From NCBI RefSeq assembly GCF_900112765.1, contig NZ_FOMZ01000002.1:1-64000 (forward strand): a stretch of DNA of 64,000 nt. Direction: 5' to 3'. Of the stretch, positions 43,071 to 54,448 are shown in pieces (positions within the stretch are counted from its first letter, which is position 1; the number at the start of each line of letters is the position of its first letter). Source of the stretch: Actinopolyspora alba (lineage in GTDB: Bacteria > Actinomycetota > Actinomycetes > Mycobacteriales > Pseudonocardiaceae). The notes below the pieces were generated by a model. That model ran no database searches, was not told where the DNA came from, and saw only the letters and a list, made by a program, of their open reading frames with translations. The translations under genes were made by a program, and so were the position numbers.

Positions 43071-46000
43071 ATGAACAGTCAGCAACCGAGCCGACCGGTG
43101 ATTACGCCCGCGATGCGGGAGCAGGCCGCGCAACAGCCGAACAGCTGGCTCTACGTGGTGGATCCGATCTTCACCGATCCCAACGCGGAAGTCCCGCCCT
43201 GGGGGTTCATCGGCGGATTCCGAGTCGACGAGCACGGGGAGATCACCGCGGACTTCTCCCCGAACCCGAACTACCGCCCCTCTCCCGTGGCGTTGCGTCT
43301 TCCCGCCCCCACCAACGACGTGGAGCGGGCACTGCAACTGACCACCACCGGCTACGCCCCCTCCCAGACGCTGCTCGGCTCCCTGCTGGAAGCCGAACTC
43401 ATCCTGTTCGCCCAGCCGCAGGGCGAAGGACTGTTCACCTTCGAACACCCCTCGGGACGCAACCAGCTGCAGGTTTTCACCTCGGAAGGCCATCTGCCGC
43501 GGAACTGGACCAGCTGGCAGCGCATGACCGGCAGGTCACTCGCGGAGCTGCGCCCGCTCGGCACCGATATGCAGGTGAACCCCGCCAGCCCGAGCAAGGT
43601 GCGTGTTCCCTGCGAGGATCTGATCCAGGCCGCGGGCATCCCGCTGCGGACCAACGACGCGGCATCGCGCAACGGTTCTGAGGCGACCACGGTGGTCACG
43701 GGACTCGGAACCCGCCACCGACCGGACCGATCCGGAGGAACGACACAGTCGGTCCCGGCACAACAGTCGGTCCCGGCACAACCGACCGCGTCGCAGCGAG
43801 CCCCCGCCGCGACAGCGGCTCCCGAGACACGATCGACCGGCGCGCCGAACGTCGCGGCGGGTAGCGCCGCGCCACCCGGAACCACGCCCGCACCCGCCGA
43901 TACGCGGAACGACGAAACCGGCCAACGCCTGCTCGGCAGCCTGCTCGCCGCCGCTGCCGGTGACGCGCTCGGCGCACCGGTGGAGTTCTATCCGCTGGAG
44001 CAGATCCGCAACCGGTACGGCAGCGCCGGGGTGACCGACTACGACCGGGACAACCAGCAGGGCGGCTCGTTCACCGACGACGGCCAGCTGATGCTGTTCG
44101 CGCTCGAGGGATTCGTCCGAGGTCACATCGCGGTGCGCCACGGGACGGCGGAGACACCGCTTCCGGCCGTACAGCTGGCATTGCAACGCTGGCTGCACAG
44201 CCAGGGATACTCCTGGTCCCGTGTGGCCGGGCCGTTCTCGGAGACCCACCCCGAACCGGACGGCTGGCTCGTGGAGCGGCCGGAGCTGTTCGCGGTGCGC
44301 TCGCCCGCCAGCGGCTCGATCAGCGCGCTGCGCGAGTTCGCGGCCTCGGGCAGGGCGGGCACGGTCGAGGAACCACTGTACTATTCGGACACTCATGGCG
44401 CGGTGCTTCGCGGAGTCGGTGCCGCGCTGTGGTCGGACGACGCCGCGGAGGTCTTCCGAACGGCCGCCTGCGCCGCCGCGCTGACCCACGGCGAGCCGGA
44501 CGGTTATCTGCCCGCGGGTACGTTCGCGGTCCTGCTGCGGGAACTGCTGTGGGAAACCCCGGCTCCGGAGGCACTCGCGCGGGCCCGGAGCGTACTCGGT
44601 GAACACGTCGCGGGCTCGGCCACGGAGCGGGCGCTGGCCGCTGCGGTGAACCTGGCCGAGCACGGGCGTCCCACCCCGGAACGGCTCAAGGACGTGCTGG
44701 GCGGTGGCTGGACCGGCCCCGAGGCACTGTCGATCGCCGTCTGCGCCCTGCTGAGTACCGAAAGCCTCGCCGATGCCGTACTGCTGGCGGTCAACCACTC
44801 CGGGGACAGCGACTCCACGGCGGCGATCTGCGGCGCCCTGGCGGGCGCCCGATACGGCAGGGACGCCCTCCCGGGCACCTGGCTGCGCGACCTGCGGGGA
44901 CGAGAGACGATCGAGGCCCTGGGGCGGGACGCGCTGCTGGAGTTCGGCGCCGAACCGCCGGACGACCCGACGTGGTGGCACCGCTACCCGGGCAGGCGGG
45001 ACGGTTCCGAACTCGGATTCAGCACCGACTTTCCCGTGACGGTTCCCGACCACTCAGAACCGTCCACGGCGGAACAGCCGACCGCCGAGGAACCGGCTAC
45101 CGAGGAACCGGCCGAAAGCGCCGACGAGAACGCGGGTTCGTCGACGGAGGAGGCAAACGACGCCGAAGGACGTCCCGGTGCGGCGGACACTTCCCGGAAA
45201 CCGGTGCTCGGCTGTCTGCTGGGCGGAGCGGTCGGTGACGCGCTGGGGTACCCGGTGGAGTTCGACTCGCTGCGCACGATCCGTGACCGGTTCGGCCCCG
45301 AGGGGGTCACAGGCCTCGAACCGAGCGGATCGGACACCGCTCCGATCAGTGACGACACCCGGTTGACGCTGTTCACGCTGGACGGACTCATCCGCGCCGG
45401 TCACAGCATGCGCCGTGGGCTGGCGACCGATCCGGTCGAGCTGGTGCAGCACTCCTACCAACGCTGGCTGCACACCCAGGGTTTCGAGAGCGAGGAGGTC
45501 ACCGGTCCCGGCTGCACCGAACCGGACGGTTGGCTGCTCTCCCGGTCCGAGCTGTTCGACCGGCGAGCACCGGGAACGACCCGTATCGAGGCGCTGCGGG
45601 GATTCGCCGCGGGCGAGAGGCCCGGTTCGTCGCACAACCCGCTGAACGAGTCCAAGGGATGTGGCGCGGTCATGCGTGCCGCACCAGCGGCGCTGTGGTC
45701 GGCCGATGTGGACGAGGTGTTCCGGCTGGGCGCCGAGACGGGGATGCTGACCCACGGCCATCCCAGCGGGTCTCTGCCCGCCGGGACACTGGCCGTGCTG
45801 GTGCGTCGGCTGCTGGAGGGGGACACGCTGCGGCGGGCCCTCGACACCGCGTTGGCGCGACTGGCGACCTGGGACGGGCACGAGGAGACGACCGAGTGCC
45901 TGCTGCGGGCGGAGGAGCTGGTCTCGCTGGGCGAGCCGGGCCCCGAGGTGATCGAACAGCAGCTCGGCGGTGGCTGGGTGGGCGAAGAGGCGCTCGCCAT

Positions 46001-48272
46001 AGCGGTCTACGCCGCGCTGAGTCACCCCGACTCGTTCACCGACGCGGTGCTGTTGGCGGTCAACCACTCCGGCGACAGCGACTCCACCGGGGCGATCTGC
46101 GGCAGCATCATGGGCAGCGCGTCGGGTGCCGAGCGAATTCCCGCGGAATGGCTGGAACCGCTGGAACTGCGCGAATCGATCGAGCGGCTCGCGCGGGACG
46201 CGGAGCTCGAGTTCGGCGCGGAGACGCCGCCCGAGCGTGACTGGGCGGAACGGTATCCGGTGGCCGACGGCGGAAAGGCCGGTGCGGTGGCGCCGAGGTG
46301 GCCGTTGCGGGAACGGGCGCTGGCCACGGAGCCGGGAACAGGTGCGGCGGACGAAGCCGGGCAGTCGAACGAGGCCGAGCACTCGAACGAAGCGGGAGCG
46401 TCGGAAGAACCCGCCGAGGAGACGGTCACGGCGGTGCCGAACGAGGACGGGACCGAGTCGGACGGTATCGAACAGGGCGGTGGGAAACCGGACGACGGGG
46501 AATCGTACGACGGGGACGAACGAGCCACGGTGGACGTGGAAAGCACGGACGGACAGCGGGACGCGGTCGGATCCGAGAGCACGCCCGTGGAGACGGCGGC
46601 CGTGGCGGACACGGCCGAGGAAGAAGCGGACGGGGTGGCCACCGCGGCGGACTTCGCGGGGAGCGACCTCCCGGCCACGGATTCCGTCCCCGAACCGGAG
46701 CAGGACGCCACGCTGGAGGCCGACGCCGCGTCGACGAGCGCGCGAACGGCGGAGTACCTGAACGCGGCGGAGCAGGCCACGGTGGATGATGAATTCCCCG
46801 ACGACGAAGAAAGCCGCACCGGCGAGAGCGCGGAAGACGGGGACGAGCGCGGTCGCCTGCCGTCGGAGAAGACCAACTCCGAGGGAACGTACGACCCGCC
46901 CCCCGGAACCCCGGCGCCGACGGGAGCCGCACCAGCGCCGGAAGCCGACGGTGCCGAGGGAACGAGCTCACCGGGGGAATCACCGGGAACGGAACTCTCC
47001 GCGGAGGAGACGCGGCTGCTGGCCGCTTGGCGCAAGCTCAGGGAGAGCCCCGAGGAGGTTCCCGCCGAGCTCGCCGGGGAGCTCCGCGAGCTGACCGCGC
47101 GGGCCTTCGGCGACGAACGGGCCGCGCTGCTGTTCGGTGAGCAGCCCGATGAATCCGCCGACTCCGGGGTGCTGGTGCGGGAAACCCCGCTGACCCTGGA
47201 CTTCGACGAGCGGCTGGCGGGGTGTGTGCTGGGGGCGGCCTGTGGTGACGCGTTCGGAGCGCCCTGGATGCTCGGACCGGCGGACCGGCTGCGACGTCCG
47301 GAATCGATCGGGTTGGCCGAGGCGTTCGGTGGCAGCGGGCGTGTCACGGCGGCGACGCAGCAACTCGCCTTCGTGCTGGCGGGAACGATCCGCGCCGACC
47401 TGCTCGGACGCGGGAGCGGAACCGGCTACGTGACCGACGTGCGGGAGGCGCTGCGGCACTGGGTCCGTACGCAGGGCGTGGCCATCGACCCGCCCGTCAC
47501 GACCGACTGGCTCTCGCACTGTTCCGAGCTCAACGCCCAGCGCTTCCCCGATCACGCCGGGACGGCCGCGTTGGTCGAACCGCGTGACGAGGACGAACTT
47601 CCCGGCCCGGCGGACCCGCCCAACGACTCGGCCGGATACCTGGCCACCGTGCGCGCGGCTCCGCTGGGTCTGCTGGCCGACGACACCGGCGCGGCCTTCA
47701 CGCTCGGCGCGCGAACGGCCGTGCTCACCCACGGCGCTCCGGACGGCTATCTGCCGGCGGGTGCGCTCGCCGCGCTGAACCACGAGCTGTTGGGGGGAAC
47801 GACGCTGGCCGAGGCCGTGGCCGCCGTGCTGACCGAACTGGACAAGTACGACGGCTGCGAGCACACGGCGGACGCACTTCGCTCGGCCGTTCGAGTGGCA
47901 CGGCGGGGAACACCGAGCGCCTCGGCGCTGCGTTCGTTGGGAACGGGATGGCACGGCCCGAGTGCGCTGGGAATAGGTGTGCTGGCGGCACTGTCGTACC
48001 CGGACTCCTGGCGCCGAGCCGTGGTGCTCGCGGCGAGCCACGCGGGTAACAGCGCCGCCACGGCGGCGGTCTGCGGTGCCGTGGTGGGGGTTTCCCGGGG
48101 GAGCAGCGCGCTGCCCGCGAAGTGGCTGGACCGCCTGGAGGTGCGCGAGGTCGTGGACCGGCTGCTCGCCGATCGCCGAGGTGTCGCTGACATCGCGCCG
48201 AACGGAAGCCTTCCGGCCTGGGCACGCGCCTACGTCACAGAAAACGAACGATCTTCACACCGTCAGCGGTAA
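43071..48272 (+). CDS. Giant T7SS-associated protein with three ADP-ribosylglycohydrolase (DraG) domains
   Basis: 1733 residues. (a) N-terminal domain resembling type VII secretion-associated proteins: 'ITPAMREQAAQQPNSWLYVVDP' and 'PNPNYRPSPVALRLPAP'. (b) SseB-like segment, 43370-43640. (c) Gln/Pro/Thr linker. (d) DraG domain 1 (about 43920-44950): 'AGDALGAPVEF', 'FTDDGQL', 'NHSGDSDSTAAICG'. (e) DraG domain 2 (about 45200-46225): 'VGDALGYPVEF', 'ISDDTRL', 'NHSGDSDSTGAICG'. (f) about 260 residues of E/D/T/A-rich linker. (g) DraG domain 3 (47210-48190) with metal motifs changed: 'VTAATQQL', 'SHAGNSAATAAVCG'. DraG enzymes remove ADP-ribose from proteins using two metal ions. Alternative start GTG 42999. 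No signal peptide, so cytoplasmic unless exported by T7SS. Confidence 0.85.
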   Translation: MNSQQPSRPVITPAMREQAAQQPNSWLYVVDPIFTDPNAEVPPWGFIGGFRVDEHGEITADFSPNPNYRPSPVALRLPAPTNDVERALQLTTTGYAPSQTLLGSLLEAELILFAQPQGEGLFTFEHPSGRNQLQVFTSEGHLPRNWTSWQRMTGRSLAELRPLGTDMQVNPASPSKVRVPCEDLIQAAGIPLRTNDAASRNGSEATTVVTGLGTRHRPDRSGGTTQSVPAQQSVPAQPTASQRAPAATAAPETRSTGAPNVAAGSAAPPGTTPAPADTRNDETGQRLLGSLLAAAAGDALGAPVEFYPLEQIRNRYGSAGVTDYDRDNQQGGSFTDDGQLMLFALEGFVRGHIAVRHGTAETPLPAVQLALQRWLHSQGYSWSRVAGPFSETHPEPDGWLVERPELFAVRSPASGSISALREFAASGRAGTVEEPLYYSDTHGAVLRGVGAALWSDDAAEVFRTAACAAALTHGEPDGYLPAGTFAVLLRELLWETPAPEALARARSVLGEHVAGSATERALAAAVNLAEHGRPTPERLKDVLGGGWTGPEALSIAVCALLSTESLADAVLLAVNHSGDSDSTAAICGALAGARYGRDALPGTWLRDLRGRETIEALGRDALLEFGAEPPDDPTWWHRYPGRRDGSELGFSTDFPVTVPDHSEPSTAEQPTAEEPATEEPAESADENAGSSTEEANDAEGRPGAADTSRKPVLGCLLGGAVGDALGYPVEFDSLRTIRDRFGPEGVTGLEPSGSDTAPISDDTRLTLFTLDGLIRAGHSMRRGLATDPVELVQHSYQRWLHTQGFESEEVTGPGCTEPDGWLLSRSELFDRRAPGTTRIEALRGFAAGERPGSSHNPLNESKGCGAVMRAAPAALWSADVDEVFRLGAETGMLTHGHPSGSLPAGTLAVLVRRLLEGDTLRRALDTALARLATWDGHEETTECLLRAEELVSLGEPGPEVIEQQLGGGWVGEEALAIAVYAALSHPDSFTDAVLLAVNHSGDSDSTGAICGSIMGSASGAERIPAEWLEPLELRESIERLARDAELEFGAETPPERDWAERYPVADGGKAGAVAPRWPLRERALATEPGTGAADEAGQSNEAEHSNEAGASEEPAEETVTAVPNEDGTESDGIEQGGGKPDDGESYDGDERATVDVESTDGQRDAVGSESTPVETAAVADTAEEEADGVATAADFAGSDLPATDSVPEPEQDATLEADAASTSARTAEYLNAAEQATVDDEFPDDEESRTGESAEDGDERGRLPSEKTNSEGTYDPPPGTPAPTGAAPAPEADGAEGTSSPGESPGTELSAEETRLLAAWRKLRESPEEVPAELAGELRELTARAFGDERAALLFGEQPDESADSGVLVRETPLTLDFDERLAGCVLGAACGDAFGAPWMLGPADRLRRPESIGLAEAFGGSGRVTAATQQLAFVLAGTIRADLLGRGSGTGYVTDVREALRHWVRTQGVAIDPPVTTDWLSHCSELNAQRFPDHAGTAALVEPRDEDELPGPADPPNDSAGYLATVRAAPLGLLADDTGAAFTLGARTAVLTHGAPDGYLPAGALAALNHELLGGTTLAEAVAAVLTELDKYDGCEHTADALRSAVRVARRGTPSASALRSLGTGWHGPSALGIGVLAALSYPDSWRRAVVLAASHAGNSAATAAVCGAVVGVSRGSSALPAKWLDRLEVREVVDRLLADRRGVADIAPNGSLPAWARAYVTENERSSHRQR

Positions 48273-48296
48273 CGGCCCGCGACGGGTCCCGCTAGG

Positions 48297-50774
48297 ATGA
48301 CGAACGCTTTGGACGAGAACACCCTGGAAGACGACGAGAAGCGATTACTGACCGCTCTTCGCGCACGCGAGAGCTCGCGTCGGAAACGGGCGGAATCGGA
48401 CGCGGCAGCCGATCCGACCACGTGGCTGGTGCGGAGCTGGCGGGAACTCGTGGCCGACCCGGCGGCAACGCCGCTCTGGGCCACCGGCCTGCGTTACCGG
48501 CTCGCCGCGGAGACCGCATCGGTCGGGAAACCGGGCTCCGACGTCTCCGGGGGACTGTTCGACGTGGACGGCTTCGTGGCGCGCTCTCCCGGTCGACTGC
48601 TGGGGATGCTCTACGGCGGCGCGCTCGGTGAGAGCGTCGCGCGGCAGGACAACCGGGGCACGGAGCGCACCGCCGCCCTGCTGTGCGCGCTGGACGGGCT
48701 GATCCACGCCCATGCCGAACTGCGAGAACTCGGGCGGGCCGATCCGCTGCGAGCGGTGCTCGCGGGACAACAGCACTGGCTGCGCAGCCGAGGCGCCCCC
48801 GTGCATCCGCCCGCCGAGCGGCACGGATCCACGTCGCCCCGGCTGTTTCGGCCGGACGATCCGCTGCTGGTGGGTTCCGGCGGTGGCGACCCGGTGATGC
48901 TGACGGTGCTGGCTCGGCTCGCACCGGACGACACACCGGCGAGCCCGGAACACCCGGGCAACGACGTCGAGTCGGCGGCGGCCGTGCCGCTCGGCGCGAT
49001 CGCCGCGCTGTGGGCCGAGGACGACCGGAGCGCTTTCCGGCTGGGCTGCGAGATCGCCGCCGTCACGCACGGCGGGGCGCGGGGTCATCTGCCCGCCGGG
49101 GTGCTCGCCGTCCTGGTGTTACGGCTGTTACGCGGCCACGGACTCGCGGAGGCGGCGGAGCTCGCCATCGGACTGTGCCCGGACCAGGACATCGCGGCGG
49201 AGCTGTCCGAAGCGGTGCGGCTGGCCGGTTTCCGACCGGCGGGCAGCCTGCCCAGTGCGGGAAACCTGGCGGCCACGGCCGACGGCGGCACCGGCAGCGG
49301 GGTGCTCGCGATCGCGCTGCGGGTGGCGCTGTCGGCCCCCGAGGACTGCGTCGCGGCGATCGACGTCGCCGCCCGTCACGGCGGGGACGCCACCACCTCG
49401 GCGATGCTGTGCGGTCAGCTGCTCGGCGCCCTGCACGGACCGGAACGGGTGAACCGCACCGGCGAGACCTCGCCGTGGATCGGGCCGCTGCTGGAACGCG
49501 TGGTCGCCGCTGCCGTCGTCGAGTTCGGGCCGGGTCCGGCGGATGTCACTCCTGCGGATTCCCCGCAGCTCGCGGATGCCCGACCGCCGACGGAGAACCT
49601 TCCGGGAGCATCCCGGAAGGAGGAGTCGACCGAGGACGGAACCTCCGACTGGGCCGCCGACGACGAGAGCTCCGTCGAGGCGGCGTGGCGACCGCGTTTC
49701 GTGCGGGCCGTGCTGGGGTGCGCCGTCGGGGAAGCACTGGGCGGGGCCGTCACGTCCGACAGCTGGCGCGAGATCAGGGACCGCTACGGGGAGGAGGGCC
49801 TGCGGGAGTACGTACCGGCCGGGCATCCCTCGGGGCGGATCGGCAGTGACACCCAGCTGCTGCTGTTCACCCTGGAGGGAACGATCCGGGCCGGAGTTTC
49901 CCGGCGCACGCTCGGCGGGGTGCGGCGCCCCACGCGGCACGTGCAGCACGCCTACCAGCGGTGGCTGCACACCCAGCACCTGAGCTGGCCCCGCGCGGCG
50001 GGCGAGTTCCTGTCCACCGCGTCCGAACCGGACGGCTGGCTGGTGGGGTTGCGCGGGCTGTTCCAGACCCGCAGTCCCGGCAGGACCATGATGCGCACGC
50101 TGATCGCCTTCGCGAAGGGGCAGCAGGCCATGGGCTCGCCGGAGGAGCCGATCAGCGACTCGGACGGCAGCAGCGCGCTGCTGCGGGCGGTCCCGGCGAT
50201 GTTGTGGAAGCCCCGGGCGCACGAGACCTTCCGGGTGGCCACCGAGACGGCGGCACTCACCCACGGCCACCCCACCGCCTGGCTGAGCGCGGGCACGCTG
50301 GGGGTGGTCGTCTCGCGGCTGTCCCGGGGCGAGGGGCTCTCGGAAGCCGTCGACGCGGCCGTGACCGAGCTGGGGCGGCATCCGGAGCACGAGGCCGTGA
50401 CACGCAGGATCGATGCGGCACGCAAGCTCGCCGAGTCGGGCATCGTCGAGCCGGAACGGCTGGAACGCACCCTCGGCACGGGGTTCAACGCGGCCGAGGC
50501 GCTGGCGATCGGGCTGTACGCGGCGCTGGTGGCCGAGGGGGACTTCGCGGCCGGGCTGCGCACCGCCGTGAACCACTCCGGCAACAGCGGGGTTTGCGGC
50601 GCTGTGACGGGCACGCTGCTGGCGATGTCGGCCGAGGATGAGATCCCCGAGCACTGGACGCACCAGCTCGAACTCGGCGAAACCGTCCGATCGCTGGCCG
50701 AGGACGGCTGCCTGGAGTTCGGCCCGAACCCGCCGGAGACCCCGGAGTGGTTCGAGCGCTACCCCGCTTCCTGA
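48297..50774 (+). CDS. Second DraG-array protein, two degenerate ADP-ribosylglycohydrolase domains
   Basis: 825 residues, 24 bp after the giant gene, same strand, so co-transcribed. Domain 4 (about 48600-49530) keeps the fold text ('GMLYGGALGESVAR', 'AALLCALDGLIHA', 'THGGARGHLPAGVLAVL') but not the acidic metal ligands ('NRGTERTAAL', 'RHGGDATTSAMLCG'). Domain 5 (about 49690-50740) keeps 'GSDTQLLLFTLEG' and 'EPDGWL' but has 'NHSGNSGVCG' in place of the second metal motif. The start 'EDDEKRLLTALRARES' resembles the helical lead-in of domain 3 upstream. It may be a non-catalytic partner of the first protein. Confidence 0.82.
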   Translation: MTNALDENTLEDDEKRLLTALRARESSRRKRAESDAAADPTTWLVRSWRELVADPAATPLWATGLRYRLAAETASVGKPGSDVSGGLFDVDGFVARSPGRLLGMLYGGALGESVARQDNRGTERTAALLCALDGLIHAHAELRELGRADPLRAVLAGQQHWLRSRGAPVHPPAERHGSTSPRLFRPDDPLLVGSGGGDPVMLTVLARLAPDDTPASPEHPGNDVESAAAVPLGAIAALWAEDDRSAFRLGCEIAAVTHGGARGHLPAGVLAVLVLRLLRGHGLAEAAELAIGLCPDQDIAAELSEAVRLAGFRPAGSLPSAGNLAATADGGTGSGVLAIALRVALSAPEDCVAAIDVAARHGGDATTSAMLCGQLLGALHGPERVNRTGETSPWIGPLLERVVAAAVVEFGPGPADVTPADSPQLADARPPTENLPGASRKEESTEDGTSDWAADDESSVEAAWRPRFVRAVLGCAVGEALGGAVTSDSWREIRDRYGEEGLREYVPAGHPSGRIGSDTQLLLFTLEGTIRAGVSRRTLGGVRRPTRHVQHAYQRWLHTQHLSWPRAAGEFLSTASEPDGWLVGLRGLFQTRSPGRTMMRTLIAFAKGQQAMGSPEEPISDSDGSSALLRAVPAMLWKPRAHETFRVATETAALTHGHPTAWLSAGTLGVVVSRLSRGEGLSEAVDAAVTELGRHPEHEAVTRRIDAARKLAESGIVEPERLERTLGTGFNAAEALAIGLYAALVAEGDFAAGLRTAVNHSGNSGVCGAVTGTLLAMSAEDEIPEHWTHQLELGETVRSLAEDGCLEFGPNPPETPEWFERYPAS

Positions 50775-54025: not shown

Positions 54026-54448
54026 TCAGTCCGTAGTGCAGACGGCGCGGAACACTCGTTCGCCGGACTCCTGCGCCGCGGCCACCAGCACCGAACCGAT
54101 GCCGCGATACGCCTTGGGGTCGTGCTCGGCCAGCACCCGGTGGCCGGACCAGATCAACACGTGCTCCCCCTTCGGGAGCCAGGACAGGTCGATCAGGCAG
54201 TCGTAGAGCGCGTCGAGATTACGTCCGGCCCATTCCGGGAACGAGAGCTGGGCGGCGATCGCGCACAGCATCATGCGCTTGTTGACCAGCTCGCTGCCGT
54301 CGACCACGTGGGGATAGCCCCCCTCCGAGCGGGCCTGCTCGACCGCCTGCGCGGTGGTGCCCACGACGGGCAGCGGGGCGGGCTCGATCACTGACGTGTC
54401 CTTCCTGGCGTGTCGCTTCAGGAAGCCTACCGCATTCATCATCATCAA
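54026..54448 (-). CDS. Barstar-family protein (orphan)
   Basis: 140 residues; the start is a run of ATG codons, and later starts are possible. The barstar core 'FPEWAGRNLDALYDCLIDLSWLP' and 'HVLIWSGHRVLAEHD' is clear. Barstar inhibits barnase-type ribonucleases. No barnase-like RNase gene is adjacent. It is third of a minus-strand trio with the two tiny membrane genes at 54495-54896. Confidence 0.85.
   Translation of the reverse strand: MMMMNAVGFLKRHARKDTSVIEPAPLPVVGTTAQAVEQARSEGGYPHVVDGSELVNKRMMLCAIAAQLSFPEWAGRNLDALYDCLIDLSWLPKGEHVLIWSGHRVLAEHDPKAYRGIGSVLVAAAQESGERVFRAVCTTD

Follow-up and report, generated by a model that had tools for sequence, protein, structure and literature searches.

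An ADP-ribosylglycohydrolase (Imm-ADP-RGHD or Imm-ARG) has been described as an enzymatic immunity protein for ADP-ribosyltransferase (ART) toxins of the R-S-E class (Zhang et al. 2012; PMC3482391; descriptions here and below follow the accessible parts of the cited sources). It is proposed there to undo what these toxins do, and is reported to be catalytically active and to occur in acidobacteria, beta/gamma-proteobacteria and firmicutes, with a fusion to Imm35 mentioned. The same paper describes polyimmunity, in which a polypeptide carries several immunity-type domains and is encoded in a small operon; the published loci vary even among strains, and several adjoin recombinase genes (PMC3482391). 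Tri1, which provides immunity to the T6SS ART toxin Tre1, combines sequestration with ADP-ribose removal (PMC7827354, PMC10763514), and Tri1 genes without Tre1 have been reported (PMC10763514). PARG enzymes can shield E. coli from an ART toxin (PMC11833690), and ADPRHL1, a PF03747 member of the vertebrate heart, was judged a pseudoenzyme from a model, yet is retained (PMC4990356).

Like Imm-ADP-RGHD, the locus described here carries PF03747 domains, and its homologues adjoin ART toxins, but it differs from the protein in the accessible account by its five domains (three apparently inactive), its N-terminal NF033532, its conserved place in actinobacteria and the lack of an adjoining ART. It resembles polyimmunity loci in being a small same-strand operon of tandem immunity-type domains uninterrupted by toxin genes (of 38 genomes, one has an ART end close to the array), although the number and order of its domains are fixed across genera (33 genomes, with reduced forms in G044 and G022) and some of the domains appear to be pseudoenzymes, unlike the polyimmunity loci as described in the text available. 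It shares with Tri1 the ADP-ribosylglycohydrolase family and occurrence without a neighbouring toxin, whereas it is multi-domain, scores 130.7 bits against a Tri1 model cut-off of 490, and has toxin-side relatives that point to T7SS rather than, as in the accessible Tri1 reports, to T6SS. ADPRHL1 is likewise a retained PF03747 pseudoenzyme, but one described outside any toxin setting. A literature search that covered little subscription content returned no description of such an array among the matches listed. DraG immunity enzymes and polyimmunity proteins are already known, and the fixed array of likely erasers and pseudo-erasers is a new variation on them.

Organisation and genomic setting of the array

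The window, that is, the whole 64,000-base stretch analysed, comprises bases 1-64000 of contig C29 in a genome of 5.24 Mb. In a contig scan, its nearest named record was Actinopolyspora righensis, with 91% identity in the best segment (very close records may be absent). The array has the following features:

43071..48272, plus strand: ORF1, 1733 aa, an NF033532 domain followed by DraG domains D1, D2 and D3 with long linkers
43140..43628, plus strand: NF033532 N-terminal domain (marginally SseB-like), from profile matches
43935..44873, plus strand: D1, DraG/ARH domain (PF03747, 198.5 bits), full catalytic residue set
45210..46148, plus strand: D2, DraG/ARH domain (PF03747, 259.2 bits), full catalytic set in the window
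47220..48119, plus strand: D3, apparent pseudo-DraG domain (PF03747, 148.4 bits), catalytic residues lost
48297..50774, plus strand: ORF2, 825 aa, apparent pseudo-DraG domains D4 and D5
48660..49451, plus strand: D4, the most diverged apparent pseudo-DraG domain (PF03747, 87 bits, profile positions 49-284 only)
49707..50651, plus strand: D5, apparent pseudo-DraG domain (PF03747, 180.3 bits), catalytic residues lost

Conservation among relatives starts at the ATG of ORF1 (43071), and the two plus-strand genes are separated by 24 bp (48273-48296), the spacing given in the original prediction. Pfam PF03747 matched three times in ORF1 (577 bits for the whole protein) and twice in ORF2 (255.9 bits); scored singly on the genome, all five domains exceeded the curated cut-off of 26.2 bits, which bears out, domain by domain, the predicted five DraG-type domains over two genes. 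Residues 24-186 of ORF1 matched the NCBIfam model NF033532 ('type VII secretion system-associated') at 140.2 bits (cut-off 85), so the proposed T7SS-associated-like N terminus is confirmed; the SseB likeness claimed alongside it is present but marginal (21.1 versus 21.0 bits). PDB sequence searches with the NF033532 domain either came back empty or returned nothing better than E 1. Both proteins scored below the cut-offs of the DraG equivalog TIGR02662 (144.2 bits for ORF1 and 47.8 for ORF2; cut-off 337.05) and of the Tri1 model NF041672 (130.7 and 16.6 bits; cut-off 490). PADLOC anti-phage defence models gave no match at E 0.01, and scans with Pfam, NCBIfam and PADLOC found no signalling, DNA-binding or effector domain in either protein.

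The complete order (NF033532 and three DraG domains in the first gene, two in the second) was found in 16 of the genomes that carry our own handles, namely all ten of the genus plus G014, G021, G034, G054, G060 and G071, and in 26 of 27 named loci. Ten named loci coincide with these genomes, and the complete array is therefore carried by 33 distinct genomes, the named carriers belonging to Actinopolyspora, Saccharopolyspora and Halosaccharopolyspora. Halopolyspora algeriensis (G044, the same as L143) has ORF1 and lacks ORF2, and G022 has a reduced form with NF033532 and two DraG domains. In Halopolyspora algeriensis the place expected for ORF2, just after ORF1, is taken by a PKD-domain subtilase (L114 8452-10254). 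A contig scan with NF033532 peptide patterns, which served as the probe for spread beyond the family, returned 28 loci: the array is present in 27, and the other, a 3.6 kb Frankiales contig, has NF033532 alone. Coverage of 80% of ORF1 was reached by none of 59 plasmid and none of 15 phage matching records (ten of each listed).

The flanks of the array were constant across genera, with two genes on one side and an enoyl-CoA hydratase, a barstar and one more gene on the other. By eye, we take the pair to be cysN-like and chelatase-like genes, and the gene beyond enoyl-CoA hydratase and barstar to be mmsB-like. In G019 the same interval held a single NF033532-NF033532-DraG gene. NF033532 matched there twice in G055 and three times in G010, and DraG three and seven times, respectively; the G010 interval also has a 216 aa frame whose end is ADP-ribosyltransferase-like (a partial match, 26 bits versus a cut-off of 23.4). 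These three genomes (G010, G055 and G019; L119 15735-16514, L120 5530-6195 and L129 3914-4618) share a conserved gene family (57-79% identity) that no Pfam model matches; its members are placed between the chelatase-like gene and NF033532-DraG. The barstar gene (PF01337, 76 bits; window 54026-54448) is 3 kb past the array and stays near it in other genera. RHS-repeat genes or fragments, as we take them to be by eye, follow the array within a few kb in four of the ten genus genomes (G001, G004, G005 and G009; L099 68-2149, L102 2546-3103, L103 12056-13072 and L107 1239-2666) and are absent in the window; in three of the four they are adjoined by what is presumably, again by eye, an AbiEii-like gene.

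Catalytic residues, constraint and age of the duplications

Five residues were scored in each domain: the catalytic Glu, the Asp pair of (T/S)DD and the two Asp of SGDSDST, which we take to be the catalytic Glu and metal-ligand Asp residues of DraG/ARH, with the motifs placed by DraG alignment. The alignment contained the five domains of the window and those of the 27 named loci (the table of catalytic residues omits L166, and D4 and D5 of four loci were taken from six-frame translation). D1 had the complete set (E, D, D, D, D) in 26 of 28 arrays, the window included. D2 was complete in 10 of 28 under the strict definition and in 20 of 28 with Asp-to-Glu permitted at the second Asp; its set is complete in the window and drifting in other arrays. 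None of the arrays scored had a complete set in D3 (0/28), D4 (0/27) or D5 (0/27). Judged by these residues, the array of the window looks like two likely erasers (D1 and D2) followed by three pseudo-erasers (D3-D5). The original description of five ADP-ribosylglycohydrolase domains was correct as to family and overstated as to activity.

Median dN/dS (NG86, uncorrected for codon bias) over 45 within-genus pairs was 0.10 for NF033532, 0.24 for D1, 0.26 for D2, 0.36 for D3, 0.55 for D4 and 0.36 for D5, making NF033532 the slowest-evolving of the six domains and D4 the loosest. The lesser constraint on D3-D5 than on D1 and D2, with D4 the least constrained, may reflect drift of these three domains. 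D5 had 110 invariant columns, near the 112 of D1, which argues that it has been retained despite its lost active-site residues.

A quick maximum-likelihood tree, built from 130 domains, put every array position in a clade of its own that spans genera; it drew a long-branch warning, and where the D3 and D4 clades fall among outsiders is uncertain. Since each position forms its own clade and the array order is constant, the duplications are old. The five domains are thus paralogues, consistent with the common origin by internal duplication originally proposed, and are not recent copies of one another. D1 fell in a clade (SH-aLRT 98) with DraG domains from the toxin loci of G021, G034, G015 and G026, among others.

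Toxins beside the array and beside homologous genes

In the window the array had neither an ART nor a TNT toxin as a neighbour, and no ART was detected in the window's genome by PF03496, PF01129 or NF041404. With tblastn, seven ART ends were searched against 47 array loci plus the window, from 38 distinct genomes, and matched a single frame, the partial one of G010. Neighbour genes of other DraG clusters were scanned with Pfam and NCBIfam, and toxins were found at the following loci:

L121: ART (PF01129) and TNT; NF033532 above cut-off
L123: ART with T7SS signal, intact DraG; NF033532 above cut-off
L119: partial ART; NF033532 above cut-off
L130: 1338 aa toxin with XopAI-like ART region and glutamine deamidase; NF033532-like, below cut-off
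L126: TNT, deamidase, RelA/SpoT, Imm35 and DraG; NF033532-like, below cut-off
L127: TNT; NF033532-like, below cut-off (near-identical to L126, one genus)
L133: ADPrib_exo_Tox and TNT; NF033532 not found
L138: ART; NF033532 not found

The survey of neighbourhoods that had been proposed with the original prediction gave a divided answer, with ART toxins beside homologous DraG genes and, at the array itself, one partial ART in 38 genomes and no eccC beside it in the ten genus genomes. The L123 toxin has an N-terminal T7SS_signal domain (PF21725, 261 bits) and is accompanied by an intact DraG and by an NF033532 gene. In L130 the toxin is followed by a protein with an NF033532-like and a degenerate DraG domain (Imm35 below cut-off) and then by an intact DraG. 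One protein of L126 (5360-7849), beside TNT/deamidase toxins, is mixed and polyimmunity-like: it combines Imm35 with an NF033532-like domain and a stretch that matches DraG weakly.

Across the 44 family genomes, DraG lay within about 10 kb of 7 of 15 ART matches (PF03496 or PF01129), compared with a chance expectation of ~0.15 (207 DraG matches in 60 genomes, ~417 Mb); the remaining eight were without a nearby DraG. The 15 include two matches in open frames of >19,000 aa, which are probably false, and leave out those of two order-level genomes. A XopAI-only match in G038 also adjoins DraG; it and nine other XopAI-only matches stand outside this count. As a control, at least 7 of 120 TNT matches in the same 44 genomes were near DraG by hand count; all seven sit in clusters with an ART match, and TNT alone is thus not clearly tied to DraG.

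Toxin-side DraG domains were scored for the same five residues when they exceeded 100 bits in our own DraG profile, which places the weak or partial stretches of L121 and L126 and one L119 frame (found by tblastn only) outside the table. Eight of nine clusters had a domain with all five residues, eight had a domain with three or fewer, and no scored domain kept exactly four. Intact and degenerate DraG were mixed in seven of the nine; L123 had only an intact and L171 (G036) only a degenerate domain. The latter gene (L171 14142-15464) has a single DraG domain with 2 of 5 catalytic residues about 4 kb from an ART match, and is the sole DraG domain found in the ~20 kb around it. It speaks for a binding role of pseudo-DraG domains and against erasure being needed everywhere.

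Another gene with DraG domains lies on contig C36 of the window's genome, between rpoC and rpsL (L009 9885-14651; 1588 aa, two degenerate DraG domains). Its orthologues occupy the rpoC-rpsL interval in G044 and in three more Actinopolyspora, and one adjoins rpsL in G022 (the gene was read in four of the ten genus genomes, and the G022 stretch showed no rpoC; loci L009, L108-L110, L134, L136, L121, L122 and L138). The whole rpoC-rpsL interval of G034 contains an ART, four DraG domains and TNT; G021 has ART, DraG genes and TNT upstream of rpsL (in a stretch without rpoC); and G014 has rpoC, NF033532-DraG, the gene with two DraG domains and a TNT-like remnant of 41 aa (in a stretch without rpsL). 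In the four Actinopolyspora the gene stands alone and is doubly degenerate. An intact second domain is present in G021, G022, G034 and, with Glu in place of the second Asp, G014; this domain keeps four of five residues in G044 and none in the four Actinopolyspora. By gene content and residues, the sister locus looks like a case of toxin loss with immunity kept, or of toxin gain in the other lineages. The rpoC-rpsL site is a possible toxin-immunity hot spot in a ribosomal gene neighbourhood.

Candidate functions and a proposed link to type VII secretion

With confidence slightly above even, we read the locus as an orphan, domesticated polyimmunity array against R-S-E-class ART toxins of the T7SS-signal type exported by Pseudonocardiaceae-type actinobacteria. 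D1, together with D2 in this species, would hydrolyse the ADP-ribose-arginine bond put by an incoming ART toxin on its target in the cell, both activity and arginine specificity being presumed. D3, D4 and D5 would act, without hydrolysis, as binders of the toxin or of the ADP-ribosylated substrate, which they would thereby occlude or concentrate; occlusion and erasure, joined in single-domain Tri1, would here be split between domains. NF033532 might recognise a common feature of T7SS-delivered toxins or anchor the complex. Domain make-up, residue loss, conservation and the toxin neighbourhoods of homologues are observed, and from them we infer protection by the array.

Immunity to secreted ADP-ribosylating toxins, one of the options originally proposed, is the best supported through homologues: DraG genes, some with NF033532, adjoin ART-ended polymorphic toxins, with the T7SS signal of the L123 toxin beside an intact DraG and NF033532, and the proximity of ART and DraG exceeds the chance expectation. 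The reading is also favoured by the partial ART of G010 and the NF033532-DraG genes of G055 and G019 in the syntenic interval, by the grouping of D1 with toxin-locus DraG domains, by the mixture of intact and degenerate DraG in most toxin-side clusters, by the toxins that accompany the sister gene in G034 and G021 (and the TNT remnant in G014), by the constraint still acting on D3-D5 and by the occurrence of T7SS-signal ART toxins in the genus (G001). Against it stand the lack of ART or TNT beside the window's array and of ART of the three families in its genome, and a domain number and order fixed across genera, unlike the strain-variable published polyimmunity loci. Further points against it are the eight ART loci without nearby DraG, which include the T7SS-signal ART of G001, the lone degenerate DraG of G036, which suits a binder and not an eraser, the solely intact one of L123, the weaker constraint on D3-D5 than on D1 and D2, and the partial nature of the G010 match, seen in a single genome.

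A broader and more tentative proposal, which we consider rather less likely to hold than to fail, is that shields of this type pair active DraG erasers with inactive traps for toxin or substrate, and that in Actinopolyspora and Saccharopolyspora they have become a fixed gene pair against foreign T7SS-delivered ADP-ribosyltransferases. If so, catalytic and pseudo-enzyme copies would divide the work of toxin immunity between them, ADP-ribosylglycohydrolase immunity would reach beyond the published Tri1-like proteins and include large actinobacterial arrays, and pairs of ART toxin and eraser would help to find what such toxins modify. The seven mixed toxin-side clusters make this division of labour testable beyond this window.

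It is unlikely, but less so than the other alternatives, that the array is a housekeeping regulator that reverses ADP-ribosylation by an endogenous, unrecognised transferase, as DraG does on nitrogenase reductase, with D3-D5 acting allosterically on D1 and D2. Fixed synteny between the cysN-like and mmsB-like genes, completeness of the array in 33 genomes and low dN/dS in NF033532, D1 and D2 would suit such a role, but no ART of the three families was found in the window's genome, TIGR02662 gave 144 bits against a cut-off of 337, and the near relatives of D1 are found in toxin loci. An improbable further alternative is a reader or sensor in which D3-D5 bind ADP-ribosylated proteins or ADP-ribose and report an NAD-consuming attack while the intact domains reset the signal; three conserved domains without catalytic residues, and the near-equal invariant columns of D5 and D1, are consistent with it, but neither protein has a signalling, DNA-binding or effector domain in the scans used.

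Least probable is a T7SS accessory, in which NF033532 would link the protein to the handling of T7SS substrates, with the DraG domains keeping an ADP-ribosylating effector harmless before export: the model name, the L123 T7SS-signal ART adjoining NF033532 and DraG genes and the presence of eccC in all ten genus genomes agree with this, but eccC is not beside the array, the genome's other NF033532 copy lies near what we take, by eye, to be purM- and purF-like genes, and the window's genome yielded no ART effector. T7SS-linked control, as originally suggested, finds no support in the neighbourhood, eccC lying beside the array in none of the ten genus genomes. In the window's genome, eccC matches above cut-off are on contigs C36 and C35 and the array is on C29, outside the eccC neighbourhood expected of a T7SS locus component. 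The T7SS-signal ART toxin of G001 has no DraG nearby. Elsewhere, several genes with clustered NF033532 domains and no DraG were observed at G041:C55:348144-357662 (L125), a TNT match and a sub-cut-off NF033532 match share one 794 aa open frame at G036:C1:4892819-4893610, and in a member of the genus a weak XopAI-like ART match (G008:C1:725575-726210) lies ~3.6 kb from an eccC match.
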